Shown in pieces: positions 3,269 to 37,924 of a stretch of DNA of 54,472 nucleotides. Position 1 is the stretch's first letter. Each line of letters starts with the position of its first letter. Source of the stretch: a virus; the IMG/VR virus record IMGVR_UViG_3300042898_002388, positions 1-54,472 of that record; one strand, written 5' to 3'. Position numbers and translations under genes: made by a program. Below the pieces are notes generated by a model, which saw nothing but the letters and a program-made list of their open reading frames with translations, had not been told where the DNA came from and did no database searches.

Positions 3269-3305
3269 CTTTTAAAATATACATAAATAGAATGGAAGAT
3301 TAAAC

Positions 3306-3313
3306 TATTTATT
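3306..3313 (+). promoter_or_regulatory. Near-match late octamer TATTTATT
   Basis: TATTTATT is five bases before the ATG of the gene at 3319, one mismatch from the recurring TATTTATA. If it is a promoter, the transcript would be essentially leaderless. Confidence 0.3.
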
Positions 3314-3318
3314 AGGGT

Positions 3319-3831
3319 ATGGACAATAAACTACCAATTACAAGATTATCTAAATTCATATCCCAAGACGATTTTGACATCAATATACAGATGGGACAAG
3401 AGTATCTACATGGTGACATTAACTTTAAATTAGTGTTATATCGTGTGGATAGACAGAAAACGACTATAGATGACGTATATGCTGAGGTTGGGATGGATGA
3501 GATTAAATATTTCCCACCTATGGAGTTTAACGCCTTAGTTAAAATTGAAGAACCAAAAAATTCAACATATAAAAATGGTTTATTACATTATAATGAACCA
3601 GGTAATATGATACTATCTGTTTATATTAAACATTTAAGTGAATTGGGGGTAGATATTAGATATGGTGACTATGTTGGATATCCTGAATCTGAAACAAGAA
3701 CAAGATACTATACAGTAACCAATGACGGTAAAGTTACTTCGGATAATAAACATAGTATGTGGGGTTATAAACCACATTATAGAACAATAACTTGTGCACC
3801 TGTACAAGACAAATCATTTAGAGGAGTATAA
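3319..3831 (+). CDS. Structural protein, possible gp14-like neck protein
   Basis: 170 residues, ATG at 3319. The C-terminal half contains a run of beta-type strands (DIRYGDYVGYPESETRTRYY, then a TNDGK turn and a WGYKPHYRTITCAPV strand). This pattern of a small beta domain reporting 'format, then value, then document-like WGYKP/HYR' recalls neck or head-closure proteins of T4-like phages (T4 gp14 has GDLIYFPMD...FEINWVEPYDPFY). Sequence similarity is too weak to be sure. Support is mainly positional: it precedes a gp15-like gene and the sheath/tube genes, in T4 order. One base separates its stop from the next start. Other virion-protein roles are possible. Confidence 0.6.
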   Translation: MDNKLPITRLSKFISQDDFDINIQMGQEYLHGDINFKLVLYRVDRQKTTIDDVYAEVGMDEIKYFPPMEFNALVKIEEPKNSTYKNGLLHYNEPGNMILSVYIKHLSELGVDIRYGDYVGYPESETRTRYYTVTNDGKVTSDNKHSMWGYKPHYRTITCAPVQDKSFRGV

Positions 3832-3832
3832 T

Positions 3833-5131
3833 ATGCCATTACCAAAAAGGAAGACGAATTTATCGGTTTACAAGGGTCAGGAATTAACCAAAAGAAGACA
3901 AGAGTTATTGGATAAAATAACTAAGTCCGACACGTTTCTTCCCGACTCAATATTACATGATGATTTAGATAGAGGTATGTTAGATTATGTAAATGAAACA
4001 TTTATTGTTGAATCCGAAGGTCATCGTATTCCTGTTATTGATAAAATATTAACAATACAAAGATGGGGTGAGTTTGCCAACAATTGGGAATTTTCCGATA
4101 AGGACGGGAATATGGAATTACCATTTATTGCTATCATTAGGAGACCTGAAGTTCAATTAGGTACAAATCCATCAGTACAAAGAACAATACCTGATAGACA
4201 CCAAATATATTATGCGTCCGTACCCACTTGGGATGGAGCTGCTTTAGGTGCTGACATTTATACCATTCCACAACCAATACCTGTGGACATATCTTATGAT
4301 GTTATTATTATTTGTAATAAGTTTAGGGATATAAACAAATTCAACAGAAAGGTATTACAAAATTTCGCGTCAAGACAAGATTACACAACGATAAAAGGAC
4401 ATTACATCCCAATTATTTTAGATAAAGTAGAAGATAACACCCCTATGGACACATTAGAAGGTAGAAGATTCTATATGCAGAACTATTCATTTACCATGTT
4501 GGGTTATTTAATTGATAGTGATGAGTTTGAAGTTAAGCCAGCGATAAATAGACTATTCACCATGTTTGAATTTGTGGTAGATACTAATTTAAAAAGTAAA
4601 AAAAGCTTTAATAAAGATAATGTGGTTCAAAAATCAACATCGGTTGCAGATGGATTACAAAAAATATTCAGTGTGGGTGAAAGTATTGGTGTATTATTTG
4701 ATGTTTTAGTAAATGGTGTGGTTCAAACTAAAAATGTAGATTATTTACACATTGCCTACACTTCCAAAATTGAATTTATTCAAACTTCAGGACAACCTAT
4801 TTTTCCGAATGAAGGTGACACCGTAACAATTCTTTATTATAAAGGTAAAAGTAATAAAATTGCGGGTGATAACGGTAAAATTTTACAATTTACGAGAGAT
4901 GAATTTAATTACACAGGAGATGAACCTGTAGGTTTAGATAATAATCCAATTTACACTACAAGTTATGAATTTACAGAAATAATTACAGTGGAGATTAATG
5001 GTTTATCGGAAAGAGAAAATATTGGTTATGAAATTTATGATGTAACCATAAATGATATTGTAGTGAAGTCTATTAAATTATTAGGTTTACCAGCAATAAA
5101 TTCAAAAATATCTATAGGTTATTTATATTAA
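3833..5131 (+). CDS. gp15-like tail terminator/sheath stabiliser with extra C-terminal beta domain
   Basis: 432 residues. The start is the ATG at 3833, directly after GAGGAG (3821-3826), one of the few Shine-Dalgarno-like sequences here; an upstream in-frame ATG at 3794 lies inside the previous gene. Residues about 140-250 carry PVDISYDVIIICNKFRDINKFNRKVLQNFAS, then HYIPIILDKVEDNT and GRRFYMQNYSFTMLGYL. This arrangement matches T4 gp15-type tail terminators (a YELSIFTRY strand, an oligomer helix, an R-x-Y-x-x-x-F strand). gp15 caps the tube and sheath and joins the tail to the neck. From about residue 265 a 168-residue beta domain (FSVGESIGVLFDVLVNG...) is added. It is duplicated as the whole of the next gene. 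Family call is moderate; the domain duplication is clear. Confidence 0.6.
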   Translation: MPLPKRKTNLSVYKGQELTKRRQELLDKITKSDTFLPDSILHDDLDRGMLDYVNETFIVESEGHRIPVIDKILTIQRWGEFANNWEFSDKDGNMELPFIAIIRRPEVQLGTNPSVQRTIPDRHQIYYASVPTWDGAALGADIYTIPQPIPVDISYDVIIICNKFRDINKFNRKVLQNFASRQDYTTIKGHYIPIILDKVEDNTPMDTLEGRRFYMQNYSFTMLGYLIDSDEFEVKPAINRLFTMFEFVVDTNLKSKKSFNKDNVVQKSTSVADGLQKIFSVGESIGVLFDVLVNGVVQTKNVDYLHIAYTSKIEFIQTSGQPIFPNEGDTVTILYYKGKSNKIAGDNGKILQFTRDEFNYTGDEPVGLDNNPIYTTSYEFTEIITVEINGLSERENIGYEIYDVTINDIVVKSIKLLGLPAINSKISIGYLY

Positions 5132-8927: not shown

Positions 8928-9383
8928 ATGAAAAAAAGTCTAATGATAAAACTTTCAATATTAACTCTATTTGTCGTTTTCTTCAAGAAAATCGTAGTAA
9001 TTGGTATGATTGTGGTAGGTGCGGTGTTTTTCCCCGAGGCTTCACAAGCATTAAGACATTATTGTTTTGGTGACGGGTCCCAATTAGAAGTTAGTCCTGA
9101 TTATATCAAAAACTCACCCGTTGTTAAAAAACACTTGGCTCACATGAAAGTAGGTGAAAAACACAAGGTTGGTATGCACCAATGGGAAGATTGGAGACTT
9201 TCATTTGCAATTAACCCGTTTACAATTGAAAAAAGAAAAGATAAGATTATCATCACTCAATGGATGAAATTTGATAAAACTAATAAAGTGATTACTTGGT
9301 TTGGTCCAATTCCTATTCCTGACAATATCGTACACACTTTTGAATGTACTCCATATATGTTCCACACGGAATGGAAACTCTAA
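8928..9383 (+). CDS. Exported or membrane-anchored hypothetical protein
   Basis: 151 residues from the ATG at 8928; an upstream TTG (8907) overlaps the promoter and is rejected. The N-terminus has a lysine-rich start, then long hydrophobic stretches (SILTLFVVFF, KIVVIGMIVVGAVFF) and PEASQA, which ends in a plausible signal-peptidase-type A-x-A site near residue 41. The remaining 110 residues are polar, with two cysteines (about residues 45 and 142) that could form a disulphide in the periplasm. No known family. It has its own host-type promoter and so is probably expressed early. It converges with the L,D-transpeptidase operon (4-base overlap of the ends), which also acts on the envelope. Superinfection exclusion or an envelope role are possible guesses only. 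Confidence 0.7.
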   Translation: MKKSLMIKLSILTLFVVFFKKIVVIGMIVVGAVFFPEASQALRHYCFGDGSQLEVSPDYIKNSPVVKKHLAHMKVGEKHKVGMHQWEDWRLSFAINPFTIEKRKDKIIITQWMKFDKTNKVITWFGPIPIPDNIVHTFECTPYMFHTEWKL

Positions 9384-10072
9384 ATTTTACTTTTACATTT
9401 ACACCCATTAGATGGAACATTAATTTGTACGGGGAATCCCTTGTAACCTGTATTGTGTAATTGTGACATCACCTCTTCAATACCATTAACAGGACTTCTA
9501 CCTAATAGCCATCCACCTATTGTGGCACCAATACCACGAAGAGTATTCAAGTACATTTTAAAATAATTGTTAGTTTTTAAATGTGGCTTTTTCTCCATTA
9601 TATTATCAAAATTATACATATCATAAATCACCCAACCACTACCACCTTGTCTAATCGTAGCACCACCTAACGTTAACATTAATTCACTAATATTTGTAGG
9701 TTGTGAACCATATGTGAAACTAGTTCCCTTATAACTTGGTGATTTTGAATACAATGTGGTGTAATCATGATAACCTAATTGGTTTTTATTTGGAAGACCT
9801 TTTGGGTCCTTACCTTGCCACATGTCAGGATTACAAGAACCCATTCTATTAGCTTTTTCACATATAACATTAGATAACGTAGATAAAGTTTCTTTTTTTA
9901 ACTCCCTTTCAGTTAATGTCTCTTTGGACATTTTTAAAAATCTAAGAGCACAATATACGTGTAATGGGGAGTTTGCATACGAGTTCGCAACTTTATTTAA
10001 CAACATTTGAGGAGCCATGATTTGCTCGACTAATTTATTGACTTGAGATTCTGTTAATATTACCTTTTTCAT
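9380..10072 (-). CDS. Unknown protein with leader shared with the adjacent L,D-transpeptidase
   Basis: 230 residues. The first 18 residues (MKKVILTESQVNKLVEQI) match the start of the upstream operon partner (MNIIISEEQTSRLIKSI) residue by residue in pattern: I-[LI]-[TS]-E-x-Q-x-x-[KR]-L-[VI]-x-x-I. The rest is not recognised. It has helical segments (residues about 20-75), a Gly/Ser/Tyr-rich middle (GGATIRQGGSGWVIYDMYNF), a glycine-rich hydrophobic stretch (LRGIGATIGGWLLGRSPV) and a C-terminal SNGCKCK motif. The start codon overlaps the stop of the partner gene by one base (TAATG on the minus strand), so the two are translationally coupled. No catalytic motif could be assigned. Likely works with the transpeptidase, or is a second internal virion protein. 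Confidence 0.8.
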   Translation of the reverse strand: MKKVILTESQVNKLVEQIMAPQMLLNKVANSYANSPLHVYCALRFLKMSKETLTERELKKETLSTLSNVICEKANRMGSCNPDMWQGKDPKGLPNKNQLGYHDYTTLYSKSPSYKGTSFTYGSQPTNISELMLTLGGATIRQGGSGWVIYDMYNFDNIMEKKPHLKTNNYFKMYLNTLRGIGATIGGWLLGRSPVNGIEEVMSQLHNTGYKGFPVQINVPSNGCKCKSKI

Positions 10073-10755
10073 TATGGTCTAACATATAATTTAGTACCAA
10101 TTCTAATTGTATTCAATAAAAACAATATATTTTCGTTTGAAACTCGAATACAACCATTAGAATGTTTACCACCTAATTGTTTTTCTTTATTTGTTCCGTG
10201 TACATAAATTGATCTTGAATAAACATTTTTATTACATGGTTCAAGTCCAACTAATTCCAAAAGACCTGTTAACACATCCGCATCGTGGATTTCACCAGTT
10301 TCAGGGTCTTTTCTTTTTCCTGGCATATCAGGACCTAAAACTAAATTTATTGGTTTTTTACCCACTAAAACCTGATATTTTCTAGGTGCTTTAATTTTAT
10401 TACTTATTTTCATAAGACCTGTACTTGTCGATGCACTATCTTGTGCATTAGTAAATCCGTAAGCACCCGTTGAAACTTTCATTTCTTTGGATAAAGTCTT
10501 TCCATTCATTGTATAGTACATTGTTTGAGAAGGACCCCATAAAATTAACATTGGTTCACCTTTGTTAATCAATTTACCTTCTGATAACATATTATATAGG
10601 TTTTGCCAATTACTAGCCCTTTTTGTATCACTAGTACTACATTCGGTAAAATCAAATGCACCTTTTACCCTATTAAAAGCCTTTTGAATGTCACTCTGTT
10701 CAGTAATAGATTTGATTAATCTACTTGTTTGTTCCTCTGAAATGATAATGTTCAT
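10072..10755 (-). CDS. L,D-transpeptidase (YkuD domain) with N-terminal leader
   Basis: 227 residues. The C-terminal half carries the YkuD signature: IYVHGTN (His186-Gly-Thr), a short spacer with LGGKH, then SNGCIRVSN with the catalytic Cys202 and Arg204. The family motif is HG-x(n)-[S/T][H/N]GC[I/V]R, and the spacing of 16 residues from His to Cys is normal. L,D-transpeptidases form 3-3 crosslinks in peptidoglycan or attach proteins to it, working outside the cytoplasm. There is no signal peptide. Instead the N-terminus is a short amphipathic helix ending in SITEQS, similar to the neighbouring gene's leader and to capsid-targeting peptides cut after (L/I)-x-E. Upstream is a TATTTATA octamer only 4 bases before the ATG. 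A phage-borne YkuD is uncommon; entry-time cell-wall modification, or repair after injection, are inferences. Confidence 0.88.
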   Translation of the reverse strand: MNIIISEEQTSRLIKSITEQSDIQKAFNRVKGAFDFTECSTSDTKRASNWQNLYNMLSEGKLINKGEPMLILWGPSQTMYYTMNGKTLSKEMKVSTGAYGFTNAQDSASTSTGLMKISNKIKAPRKYQVLVGKKPINLVLGPDMPGKRKDPETGEIHDADVLTGLLELVGLEPCNKNVYSRSIYVHGTNKEKQLGGKHSNGCIRVSNENILFLLNTIRIGTKLYVRP

Positions 10756-11043: not shown

Positions 11044-11532
11044 ATGGCAGATTTATTAATGAAAATGCCGGTTCCATATGAACCGAAAAGACAAAACCGA
11101 TTTATTGTTCGTTTCCCATCTTCTTTGGGTATTAATGAATGGTACGTAACATCGGCTAAAAGACCTAGTGCTAAAATTAACTCAGTAGCAATTCCTTTCT
11201 TGAACACCTCAACTTATGTTGCTGGTAGATTTGAGTGGGAAACGATGCAGGTAACATTTAAAGACCCAATTGGACCTTCAGCGTCACAAGCGTTGATGGA
11301 ATGGTTCCGTTTACATGCGGAGTCTGTAACAGGTCGTATGGGATATGCTGCGGGTTATAAGAAAGATATTGAACTTGAGATGTTAGACCCAACGGGAGTT
11401 GTGGTTGAGAAATGGATTTTACAAGGTACTTTCATCCAAGACTTAAATTTTGGAGATTTAGATTACTCAAGAGATGAATTAGCGACAATCACATGTACTT
11501 TAAGAATGGATAGATGTATCCAAGTTTACTAA
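11044..11532 (+). CDS. Tail tube protein (gp19-like)
   Basis: 162 residues, the normal length for the T4 gp19 family (163 in T4). It forms stacked hexamers, the inner tube through which DNA passes. Family features are FIVRFPS at the start (residues about 19-26), a long insertion loop, and the strands FEWETMQVTFKDPIG, a helix LMEWFRLHAESVTGRMGYAAGYKKDIELEMLDPTG, WILQGTFIQDLNFGDLDYS and the closing TCTLRMDRCIQVY. It has its own late octamer upstream and a strong terminator downstream, so like the sheath it is a separate, highly expressed unit. The sheath and tube genes are separated here by the accessory island at 8928-10755. Confidence 0.96.
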   Translation: MADLLMKMPVPYEPKRQNRFIVRFPSSLGINEWYVTSAKRPSAKINSVAIPFLNTSTYVAGRFEWETMQVTFKDPIGPSASQALMEWFRLHAESVTGRMGYAAGYKKDIELEMLDPTGVVVEKWILQGTFIQDLNFGDLDYSRDELATITCTLRMDRCIQVY

Positions 11533-11636: not shown

Positions 11637-12383
11637 ATGGAAAATTATAATATAGACCCAACAATTTCTTACGATGTAGTGGAATTACCAAGTAAAGGTA
11701 TTTTCTACGCAAATAATAAAAAAAGTTTAAGGGTTGCTTACTTAACAGCATCCGATGAAAATATCTTGGTAGCACCAAACTTATTACAGAGTGATACTGT
11801 AATTGAAGAGTTACTTAAAAGAAAAATATTAGATAAAGACTTCAATATTGATGAATTAGTAGATGAAGATAGACAAGCAATATTAATATTTTTAAGAAAT
11901 ACCGCATTTGGTAGTGAATACGAAATGGAGATGATTGACACTAAAACCAATTTACCATTTAAATTTGCGTTAGACCTATCAATTTTAAAAGTGAGAGATT
12001 TTAACTTAAAACCCGATGAAAACGGAGAATATTCATTTTTTATGAATATTTCAAAGAAGAATATTACTTTTAAGTATTTGAATAACATTCAAGAAAAAGA
12101 TTTAATTAAAATAAGAGATAATTCATCGACCTCTGTCGCTCCCGTAACTACAAAGAGACTTGAAATGATGATTAAGTCGGTCGATGGTATGAGAGACCAA
12201 ATGGGTATTTATCAATTTATTCAAAATTTACCAATTAGAGATTCTCAAGAATTTAGAAAATTTGCAAACGATAATAAACCCGGCATTGATTTGTCAGTAG
12301 ATGTAAAAACCCCGTCAGGAGACACAGTCAAAGCTTATATTGACTTCGGGGTGGAGTTTTTTCGTCCTTTCTACGGCGTATAA
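11637..12383 (+). CDS. gp26-like baseplate/tail assembly chaperone, zero-frame product
   Basis: 248 residues. It matches the T4 gp26-type family (T4 baseplate protein): IDPTISYDVVELPSKGIFY at the start, then a YLTASDENIL segment, the IDELVDEDRQAILIFLRNTAFG helix, and a last domain ending in DFGVEFFRPFYGV. It lies between the tail tube and the tape measure gene, the usual place of tail assembly chaperones (lambda G/GT type). Those genes commonly use a programmed frameshift, and here a second open frame (12364-12510) starts within the last codons of this gene. No late octamer is upstream; a palindrome AGTTTAAACT (11621-11630) sits just before the ATG. The protein probably binds the tape measure during tail assembly. 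Confidence 0.85.
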   Translation: MENYNIDPTISYDVVELPSKGIFYANNKKSLRVAYLTASDENILVAPNLLQSDTVIEELLKRKILDKDFNIDELVDEDRQAILIFLRNTAFGSEYEMEMIDTKTNLPFKFALDLSILKVRDFNLKPDENGEYSFFMNISKKNITFKYLNNIQEKDLIKIRDNSSTSVAPVTTKRLEMMIKSVDGMRDQMGIYQFIQNLPIRDSQEFRKFANDNKPGIDLSVDVKTPSGDTVKAYIDFGVEFFRPFYGV

Positions 12384-12510
12384 GAAAAAACAAATATCAG
12401 CAATTACCAATTTAGTACATAGAGGATTTACCTATAGAGATCTTCTCATTATGCCAATACACGAGCGTAATAATATTATCATGTTTATTAATGAAGAAAA
12501 TTCCCAATAA
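12357..12510 (+). CDS. Probable +1 frameshift extension of the tail assembly chaperone
   Basis: An open frame shifted by +1 relative to the preceding gene runs to the TAA at 12508-12510. Read from 12364 it gives 48 residues, including ITNLVHRGFTYRDLLIMPIH, which looks like a real helical chaperone domain. The only ATG within it (12452) would lose that conserved-looking part; a TTG at 12340 is the only upstream alternative start. A slip is plausible at GAG TTT TTT CGT (12354-12365): tRNA-Phe on TTT could move by +1 onto TTC, which it reads perfectly, next to an uncommon CGT codon. A -2 shift gives the same frame. Position just before the tape measure is where G-T type frameshift fusions occur. 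The frame is seen; the frameshift is inferred. Confidence 0.6.
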
Positions 12511-12512
12511 AC

Positions 12513-12520
12513 TATTTATA
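12513..12520 (+). promoter_or_regulatory. Late-promoter-like octamer TATTTATA (tape measure)
   Basis: The octamer lies 22 bases before the tape measure ATG at 12543 and just after the stop of the frameshift extension. Confidence 0.45.
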
Positions 12521-12542
12521 GATGATATATTAATACGACACA

Positions 12543-14573
12543 ATGGCTAATGGATTAAACCCCCAACAACAAACTCAATTACAAGGAATATTACAGAACC
12601 AATTTGGTCTTGGGCGTTCGAACGCCCAATCTTTTGTAAATGGGGGTAATCAAAGTGTTTTAGGTAATTTAGCTAGTCAATCCACCGCAAGTGCTGGTAG
12701 TACTACGAGTAGTGGTACTGGTTTAGGTGGTGTGGGAGGTTATTTACAAGGTGGTCAACAAATATTAAATGCGGGAATGAAGACCGCGGCTGATGTTACT
12801 TTAGCTAATTTTTATGATAATTTAAGTAATTCCAGTAATAGACTTAGTGTTGATACTTTTTCAACAATATTAAGAGGTGTTGCTGGTGGAGTTTCAAACC
12901 TTGCAAGTTTAAATATACCAGGACTGTTTACCGAAATGTTTAGTACGGGTGGTGCATTAGCGACAAAGTTTCTAAAGGATTTAGCTGAAACACAATCTAG
13001 ATTAATTGATGTAACCAATAAATCAGGTGCGTTCGTTGGTGATTTAGGTGGAAATATGAGAGAGGAGTTGAATGATGCAATGGTTGAAACAACTAAACTC
13101 GGAATGACTGTTGATGATTTCTTAAAATCTACTGAAATATTATTAACTAGTTCAGGTAGAATGGCTTTATATAGTAAAGAAGCCATTAGTGAGGGTGTTA
13201 AAGCGTCAATTGCATATACTAAATCGTCCACTACTTTATTAGAAAATAATGAAGCTTTTAGAAATGTTGGATATGGTTTACAAGATGCGGCAAAGGTAAT
13301 TACCACCGCGGGACAAAAAACATTAGAATTAGGATTAAATGCAAAAGTATTAACTGAAACATTAGTTAAAAATATAGGTAAATTAAATGAATTTGGATTT
13401 CAGGGAGGTGTTGCTGGTTTAACAAGAATGTCACAACAAGCACAATCCCTTAATTTCAATATGGATAATACACTTAAAATTGCCAACGATTTATTTGATC
13501 CAAATAAAGCAATAGATATGGCGGCTAATTTATCTATGATTGGTGGTGCCATTGGTGATTTTGGTGATCCATTAAGAATGATATACGATGCGACAAATAA
13601 CGTTGAGGGTTTACAAACAAGTTTAATTAACGCATCAAAAAGTTTAGCAACATTTAATTCGGCACAAGGTAGATTTGAAGTTACCGGTGCGAATTTAAGA
13701 AGAGCTAAGGCAATGGCAGATACATTTGGTATATCAATGGGTGATTTGACAAGTTTAGCGGTTAAAGCTAACGTTCAATTTCAAGCCATGAGTCAAATAC
13801 GTTCAATATTCCCCGAAGCTTCTAAAGAACAACAAGAGTTTATTAAGAATCTTTCAACAATGAAAGATGGTAAAATAGGTATTAGTATTCCTGCTGAAGT
13901 AGCTGAAAAATTTGGAGTAGTAGATAAAGTAAAAGATGGATTTATTGAATTTGCGGAATTTGCAAAGATTGATGTAACTAAGAGAAATCAAATTATTGAA
14001 GAACAAAAGAAAATTCAGGCAATGAAACCTGAAGATATTGCTAGAGGACAATTCAACGCAACCACTCAAATTCTGAATGTAATTAGTGCGATGTATATCC
14101 AACAACAAAATCAACTTAGACGAAGTGGGCCGGGTAAAACATTGGGTGACGCGGCTAATGACTTTGCTAAAAACATGTCAACTATTGAGATATCCAAAAA
14201 TAAATCTACTCAAGATTTAATAAATGATGTAACAAAGCAAGCTCAAAATACATTAAGTAAATATTATGGAAATGTCACACCAAATGAACTAACAGTTACT
14301 GAGATGAAAAATAGTAAAAGTGAGAACGCTAAAATTGAGGCTAAAAATAGTACCACTACTAATGCAAATATTGAAAATAAAAACAACACTTCAGATAGTA
14401 CAACTCAAAAGGTTGATATAACACATACAATTACAGCAAGTGATTCAACTATGGATGCAATGACAAAACATTGGTCTAAGAATTTACAATCTTTAGAATT
14501 AATAGGACTTAAAATTAATAACAAACCAAAAAGTTTTGATAGTACACAGAAAGTACTCAAAAAAACTAACTAA
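12543..14573 (+). CDS. Tail tape measure protein
   Basis: 676 residues. Composition is typical of a tape measure: Gly/Ser/Gln-rich N-terminus (GLNPQQQTQLQGILQNQFG), then long Ala/Leu/Ser-rich helical stretches with hydrophobic patches (GGVSNLASLNIPGLF, LSMIGGAIGDFGDP) and coiled-coil-prone regions, and a hydrophilic C-terminal tail (about 560-676) rich in Lys/Asn/Thr. It follows the assembly chaperone directly, as expected. In tailed phages this protein sets tail length at about 1.5 angstroms per residue, which would give a tail near 100 nm, close to T4. There is no visible peptidase or lysozyme domain. It is the functional counterpart of T4 gp29, but I cannot show sequence homology. Confidence 0.8.
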   Translation: MANGLNPQQQTQLQGILQNQFGLGRSNAQSFVNGGNQSVLGNLASQSTASAGSTTSSGTGLGGVGGYLQGGQQILNAGMKTAADVTLANFYDNLSNSSNRLSVDTFSTILRGVAGGVSNLASLNIPGLFTEMFSTGGALATKFLKDLAETQSRLIDVTNKSGAFVGDLGGNMREELNDAMVETTKLGMTVDDFLKSTEILLTSSGRMALYSKEAISEGVKASIAYTKSSTTLLENNEAFRNVGYGLQDAAKVITTAGQKTLELGLNAKVLTETLVKNIGKLNEFGFQGGVAGLTRMSQQAQSLNFNMDNTLKIANDLFDPNKAIDMAANLSMIGGAIGDFGDPLRMIYDATNNVEGLQTSLINASKSLATFNSAQGRFEVTGANLRRAKAMADTFGISMGDLTSLAVKANVQFQAMSQIRSIFPEASKEQQEFIKNLSTMKDGKIGISIPAEVAEKFGVVDKVKDGFIEFAEFAKIDVTKRNQIIEEQKKIQAMKPEDIARGQFNATTQILNVISAMYIQQQNQLRRSGPGKTLGDAANDFAKNMSTIEISKNKSTQDLINDVTKQAQNTLSKYYGNVTPNELTVTEMKNSKSENAKIEAKNSTTTNANIENKNNTSDSTTQKVDITHTITASDSTMDAMTKHWSKNLQSLELIGLKINNKPKSFDSTQKVLKKTN

Positions 14574-14579
14574 AATATC

Positions 14580-14587
14580 TATTTATA
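14580..14587 (+). promoter_or_regulatory. Late-promoter-like octamer TATTTATA, overlapping TATAAATA
   Basis: TATTTATAAATA (14580-14591) contains both the octamer and its reverse complement, which is the T4 late consensus. The ATG is 10 bases after the octamer. Confidence 0.45.
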
Positions 14588-37876: not shown

Positions 37877-37916
37877 AATGTTTTTTCGTTATAATAATAG
37901 AAAACCCGATCGTTTC

Positions 37917-37924
37917 TATTTATT
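37917..37924 (+). promoter_or_regulatory. Near-match late octamer TATTTATT
   Basis: Nine bases before the ATG at 37934, one mismatch from TATTTATA; possible promoter of the large wedge/fibre genes. Confidence 0.3.

Follow-up and report, generated by a model that had tools for sequence, protein, structure and literature searches.

The DNA between the tail tube gene and the presumed tape measure gene of this viral sequence raises the question of how a reading frame without a start codon of its own comes to be translated. The window, i.e. the whole analysed stretch of 54,472 nt (IMG/VR record IMGVR_UViG_3300042898_002388), carries this frame directly behind a gene for a gp26-like protein. Sequence comparison established the conservation of the frame, a conserved site at the junction, a conserved hairpin ahead of it and homology to T4 gp26/gp51. 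Taken together, the comparisons indicate that the locus very probably makes two chaperone forms from one gene by a +1 frameshift at UUU_C.

Gene identity and layout of the locus

The gene at 11637-12383 (+ strand, frame 3) has an unshifted product of 248 aa and encodes a gp26-like tail assembly chaperone. By its sequence matches, it is the TAC-N of the T4 gp26/gp51 family (PF12322). The match to PF12322 had an E-value of 7e-6 and 26.3 bits (gathering cut-off 24.5), and the profile phrog_150 was matched with E=3e-10. An AlphaFold2 model of TAC-N reached a pLDDT of 88. A fold search with this model returned predicted T4-like baseplate hub gp26/gp51 proteins with E-values down to 1e-26, and the fold search against the PDB gave no significant match. 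The preliminary description had seen a tail assembly chaperone here, and the matches to PF12322, phrog_150 and the fold bear this out.

When the protein was read on into the +1 frame by a single-base step at TTTC, residues 14-288 of the fused product aligned continuously with positions 16-280 of 282 in phrog_150. In T4, gp51 covers positions 13-280 of this profile, and gp26 covers 14-235 only. Hence, the unshifted product resembles gp26 and the shifted product resembles gp51. The bit score hardly gained from the extension (40.9 for the fused protein vs 40.8 for TAC-N alone), and an AlphaFold2 model of the fused sequence by itself was uninformative (pLDDT 34).

A gene for a gp19-like tail tube protein lies just upstream of TAC-N, at 11044-11532. 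The next gene downstream (12543-14573, + strand) is presumed to encode the tape measure protein from its position only. Profile searches with its product gave no convincing family match, and a large gene at the corresponding place in phage immuto is annotated as a tail tape measure protein. On the reverse strand, the neighbouring genes at 9380-10072 and 10072-10755 have a similar short motif at both starts. The product of the latter ends with HGT...SNGCIRV, which resembles an L,D-transpeptidase active site.

The +1 frame and its conservation

The downstream part, TAC-C (12364-12510, + strand), is in the +1 frame and consists of 48 codons and a stop codon, without its own start codon. The open stretch of the +1 frame starts at 12307 and closes with the stop at 12508-12510, between TAC-N and the gene at 12543, and exactly 48 codons follow the TTT-C of the site (VLSTAYKKKQISAITNLVHRGFTYRDLLIMPIHERNNIIMFINEENSQ). 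The length and the coordinates in the preliminary description were right. It had counted a single internal ATG, but there are two in frame, at the 30th and the 40th codon past the site. As either of them would cut off the conserved part, the point that TAC-C has no usable start stands. A TTG at 12340 opens the +1 frame in the window. Taken alone, a 67-codon open frame is unremarkable at 32% G+C.

Relatives were collected by IMG/VR searches. The first set of the window's clade comprised 47 distinct members including the window, and a second search added 27 further distinct clade sequences. A wider set held 83 more distant loci beyond the clade. The 47 and the 83 (130 loci) were scored for re-pairing at the site.

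The downstream frame was +1 in each of the 74 distinct clade members whose junction is intact (47 + 27) and in all 83 more distant loci. The distant loci included Flavobacterium phage immuto, Microcystis phage Mel-JY01, Bacillus phage SP-15, Rhodothermus phage RM378, a Streptococcus phage and a huge uncultured phage. Among the 47 clade members of the first set, dN/dS was 0.155 in the +1 frame, with 0 stops. The other two frames had a dN/dS of 1.1 and 2.0 and approximately three stops each. With conservation in 74 and 83 loci, a dN/dS of 0.155 and no stop in 47 members, the +1 frame is far beyond chance. TAC-C is a conserved out-of-frame extension, and the aligned relatives displayed both the purifying selection and the conserved slip site (see the following section) that the preliminary description had led us to look for.

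One clade contig (L037) is without TAC-C, and its TAC-N runs straight into the inside of the next gene. The junction lies at a short shared sequence, around 3690-3900, which points to either a deletion or a misassembly.

TAC-C matched the TAC-C of the immuto-like +1 phages with E=1.3e-10, and the immuto-like TAC-C matched that of cyanophages with E=1.7e-5. The match between this TAC-C and the -1 TAC-C of cyanophages was weak (E=4e-4), and a direct comparison with T4 gp51 was not significant. The link to gp51 is carried mainly via the immuto-like TAC-C and from there via the cyanophage TAC-C.

TAC-C could also be a small protein in its own right, translated from an internal start or by ribosomes that re-initiate beyond the TAC-N stop. 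In the GenBank records of immuto, SP-15 and Mel-JY01, separate small ORFs have been drawn at this place, and the annotation of T4 gene 26 includes an internal in-frame product, 26'. Yet no ATG was present between the last +1-frame stop and 15 codons past the site in 33 of the 47 clade members, and three of the 47 had no ATG, GTG or TTG in this interval. In five of the 47 clade members and 20 of the 83 distant loci, a +1-frame stop precedes the site by ≤11 nt, and no start codon lies in between; close relatives of the window, e.g. L008, have such a stop just before the site. For these loci, shifting at the site is the simplest way into the frame. Relatives were searched for a conserved separate start of TAC-C, and none was found; the frame itself was conserved, so that neither of the observations that could have overturned the preliminary description turned up. 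Moreover, a separate protein leaves the conserved shift site unaccounted for, and both parts are in one frame in T4 gp51. We consider this explanation very unlikely.

The probable shift site and the likely direction of the shift

The site TTT TTT C is located at 12357-12363 (+ strand), with TTT-C at 12360-12363. We infer that the P-site codon TTT (12360-12362) is exchanged for TTC (12361-12363), with CGT (12363-12365) as the zero-frame codon in the A site. The sequence TTTTTTC was found in 46 of the 47 clade members, followed by a CGT or CGC codon, and in all 27 sequences of the second set. The slippery TTT-C at 12360-12363 was already part of the preliminary description and is confirmed by these relatives. 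L085 of the same clade has TTCTTTC (codons TTC TTT). In the immuto-like group, the site is TTT YTT, then TGG, TAC or TTC, and then CCT. A shift-prone site is therefore conserved at the junction. PMC5009743 describes UUU_Ynn as a sequence on which bacterial ribosomes are particularly liable to shift by +1, and UUU_CGU also forms the core of the described +1 site in influenza A segment 3.

The C domain is likewise in +1 in four relatives (L286, L287, L289 and L290) of a chaperone (L205) that was found in a rumen Bacteroidaceae assembly. Their junction is ATT TTC A, and there is no zero-frame UUU_Y at that place.

Lambda-type gpG/gpGT chaperones use a programmed frameshift of -1, and Mu-type chaperones one of -2. 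A lambda-type shift does not agree with the data: the C domain was in +1 in every clade member analysed, and the -1 frame closes soon after the TAC-N stop in nearly all clade members. A -2 shift, which the preliminary description had kept beside +1, would lead into the same frame and add one extra Phe. In 46 of the 47 clade members, among them the window, the six T's permit re-pairing of Phe two bases back. This re-pairing is impossible in 23 of the 130 loci (L085 with TTC TTT C and the sites of the TTTCTTT type, codons TTT CTT), whereas re-pairing in +1 is possible in all 130 (by tRNA-Phe, or CUU on UUU). Hence, -2 shifting is disfavoured; we rate it as no more probable than the separate protein, and the +1 part of the earlier claim is what stands.

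Slippage of RNA polymerase on the T run would yield mRNAs of altered length in which the frames are fused. The window offers a run of six T's, which is short for polymerase slippage, and relatives with TTTCTTT or TTCTTTC kept the +1 frame with a longest T run of only three or four, which makes this explanation more improbable still. Finally, a frame break in a single contig can arise through a sequencing or assembly error that splits one gene, but the same arrangement in >150 loci, from many metagenomes as well as isolate genomes, refutes this.

A conserved hairpin upstream of the site

An RNA hairpin conserved in the clade lies just 5' of the shift site, at 12309-12352 (+ strand). It is an addition to the preliminary description and sets the window's clade apart more than any other feature. 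The outer stem pairs 12309-12314 with 12347-12352 (ACCCCG/CGGGGU), and the inner stem pairs about 12326-12330 with 12341-12345. With UUU 12360-12362 in the P site, the hairpin ends, at 12352, four bases ahead of the E-site codon.

The outer stem, RCCCCR/YGGGGU, was 99.5% paired across 36 distinct rows. In the same rows, the pair 12314-12347, which joins two synonymous third positions, was GC in 14, AU in 11, GU in 10 and unpaired in 1. The whole structure beat 500 of 500 shuffles both in covariation score and in cells paired, and it beat all slid versions. The mean z against codon-preserving shuffles was -2.48 (34 sequences). The 27 later sequences, which had not been used to define the hairpin, kept CCCC/GGGG in 27 of 27 cases and the pair 12314-12347 in 25. 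On the tree, this pair changed only a few times (three direct GC/AU exchanges, the others via a single unpaired step), meaning that the covariation is supportive but not overwhelming. The inner stem occurred in most sequences, with a varying register.

Synonymous change was suppressed at 12294-12344 (+ strand), i.e. TAC-N codons 220-236. In 9-codon windows, it was 0.30-0.40 of expectation there, the lowest in the gene, and roughly 0.7-1.35 of expectation further upstream in TAC-N. On the 5' side of the hairpin, UCAGGAGA (12315-12322) was nearly invariant, though the genes here use no Shine-Dalgarno sites. A three-base hairpin in the bulge, GUC-AGGA-GAC, was present in some sequences only.

For the clade, RNAalifold detected no conserved fold 3' of the site. 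In the immuto-like group, there was no such hairpin and no conserved structure in the windows tested on either side. As these more distant +1 phages are without it, the hairpin is not required for +1 shifting generally.

Shine-Dalgarno context and proposed mechanism

None of the 25 genes in the window had a Shine-Dalgarno-like site, with ~9% expected by chance. This absence fits a putative Bacteroidota host, and one distant relative sits in a Bacteroidaceae assembly. AGGAG was conserved ~35 nt upstream of the shift codon, inside the hairpin.

Huang et al. (PMC6321510) showed that hairpins adjacent to the E site stimulate +1 shifting on 70S ribosomes in vitro. The effect was ~60% of that of a Shine-Dalgarno duplex, at CUUUGA without RF2 (PMC6321510). 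Their constructs had a stop codon and no RF2, and the phage has the sense codon CGU at that point. Since hairpins can stimulate +1 shifting and the genes of the window are without Shine-Dalgarno sites, a hairpin in place of the duplex is a reasonable idea. We lean slightly towards a +1 shift in this large, Shine-Dalgarno-free T4-like clade that is driven by a hairpin which refolds co-translationally beside the E site and takes the place of the internal Shine-Dalgarno duplex.

The proposed sequence of events, in which we infer that the shift occurs, its direction, the exact codon, the role of the hairpin, the product ratio and the function, is as follows. Most ribosomes would terminate at the UAA at 12381-12383 and release TAC-N (248 aa). 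The others, a minority, would slip by +1 with the second UUU (12360-12362) in the P site, where tRNA-Phe would re-pair from UUU to the overlapping UUC. Reading would resume at GUC and give the shifted product TAC-NC of 290 aa, the putative counterpart of T4 gp51. The hairpin at 12309-12352 probably refolds on leaving the mRNA exit channel, beside the E site, and would thereby promote the forward slip, in the manner of the internal Shine-Dalgarno duplex at the prfB site. If lambda gpG/gpGT is a guide, loading of the tape measure protein and recruitment of the tail tube would be the tasks of the two forms.

Comparison with known systems

As in lambda gpG/gpGT, a short and a long chaperone are expected, and the shift is close to the 3' end of the gene and before a presumed tape measure gene. 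Unlike lambda, the shift here is +1 at UUU_Y rather than -1 on a heptamer, the protein belongs to PF12322, and a conserved hairpin lies on the 5' side.

The bacterial prfB gene (RF2) combines a +1 slip with a Shine-Dalgarno duplex upstream and a UGA stop codon in the A site. The present locus would share the +1 slip and, as a candidate, an upstream duplex beside the E site as stimulator; it differs in having an intramolecular hairpin and a sense codon.

The T4 proteins gp26 and gp51 are of the same family, the unshifted form corresponding to gp26 and the shifted form spanning the profile like gp51. In T4, they are two separate genes without a frameshift (PMC10885494). Shifting by -1 has been described in T4-like chaperones (PMC12846349). 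The C domain was in -1 in the cyanophages P-SSM2 and S-PM2 and in Cr30, phiM12 and phiW-14, mostly at T TTT TTC, and also, by coordinates, in Pelagibacter phage HTVC008M. Two huge phages of the same family, LR756511 and Agrobacterium phage Atu_ph07, likewise have the C domain in -1. The window shares with the cyanophage-type chaperones the family, a related C-terminal domain and a T-run motif at the junction. The phase of the T run differs: it is T TTT TTC with -1 there and TTT TTT C with +1 here. As the cyanophage-type relatives use -1 at T_TTT_TTC, the direction of the shift has switched.

Forward chaperone shifts also occur among actinophages. The archaeal myovirus HSTV-2 likely has a +1 frameshifted chaperone, and thus the same direction and role, as far as the passages of PMC5009743 on it go. 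They concern an archaeal host and describe no hairpin, and the likeness is one of described direction and role. The preliminary description had expected a distinct +1 variant in a T4-like phage of Bacteroidota. The +1 arrangement holds up, but it extends beyond this phage and beyond Bacteroidota phages; it was also found in phages with Microcystis, Bacillus, Rhodothermus or Streptococcus as host. A literature search, the reach of which did not extend to the work of Vladimirov, Gautam and Davidson (2022, Virology 566:9), reportedly on T4 gp26 and gp51, did not bring up any account of a +1 shift in the chaperones of T4-like phages.

A nearby motif and wider meaning

The motif CTATTTAT occurs at 12512-12519, 14579-14586, 37916-37923 and 3305-3312 on the + strand and at 3283-3290 on the - strand. 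It is located 7-31 nt ahead of several start codons in the correct orientation, and it directly follows the TAC-C stop in 43 of the 47 clade members. Over the window as a whole, it is no more frequent than expected by chance. It may represent a late promoter element.

A separate small hypothetical protein that equals TAC-C or a part of it is annotated in immuto (L014:4854-4964), Mel-JY01 (L015:4728-4964) and SP-15 (L181:3264-3383). This means that several deposited genomes list TAC-C as a hypothetical protein of its own.

Within one family, there would be three routes to a chaperone pair: a -1 shift (cyanophage type), a +1 shift (the window's group) and two genes (T4). The T-run motif is at the same place in different phases and with opposite directions, and the evolution of the frameshift direction should therefore be traceable. 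The hairpin of the clade offers a natural example, easy to test, of an RNA structure ahead of the site that may favour a forward shift in phages without Shine-Dalgarno sites. If true, it would be the natural counterpart of a hairpin effect so far known from test constructs.
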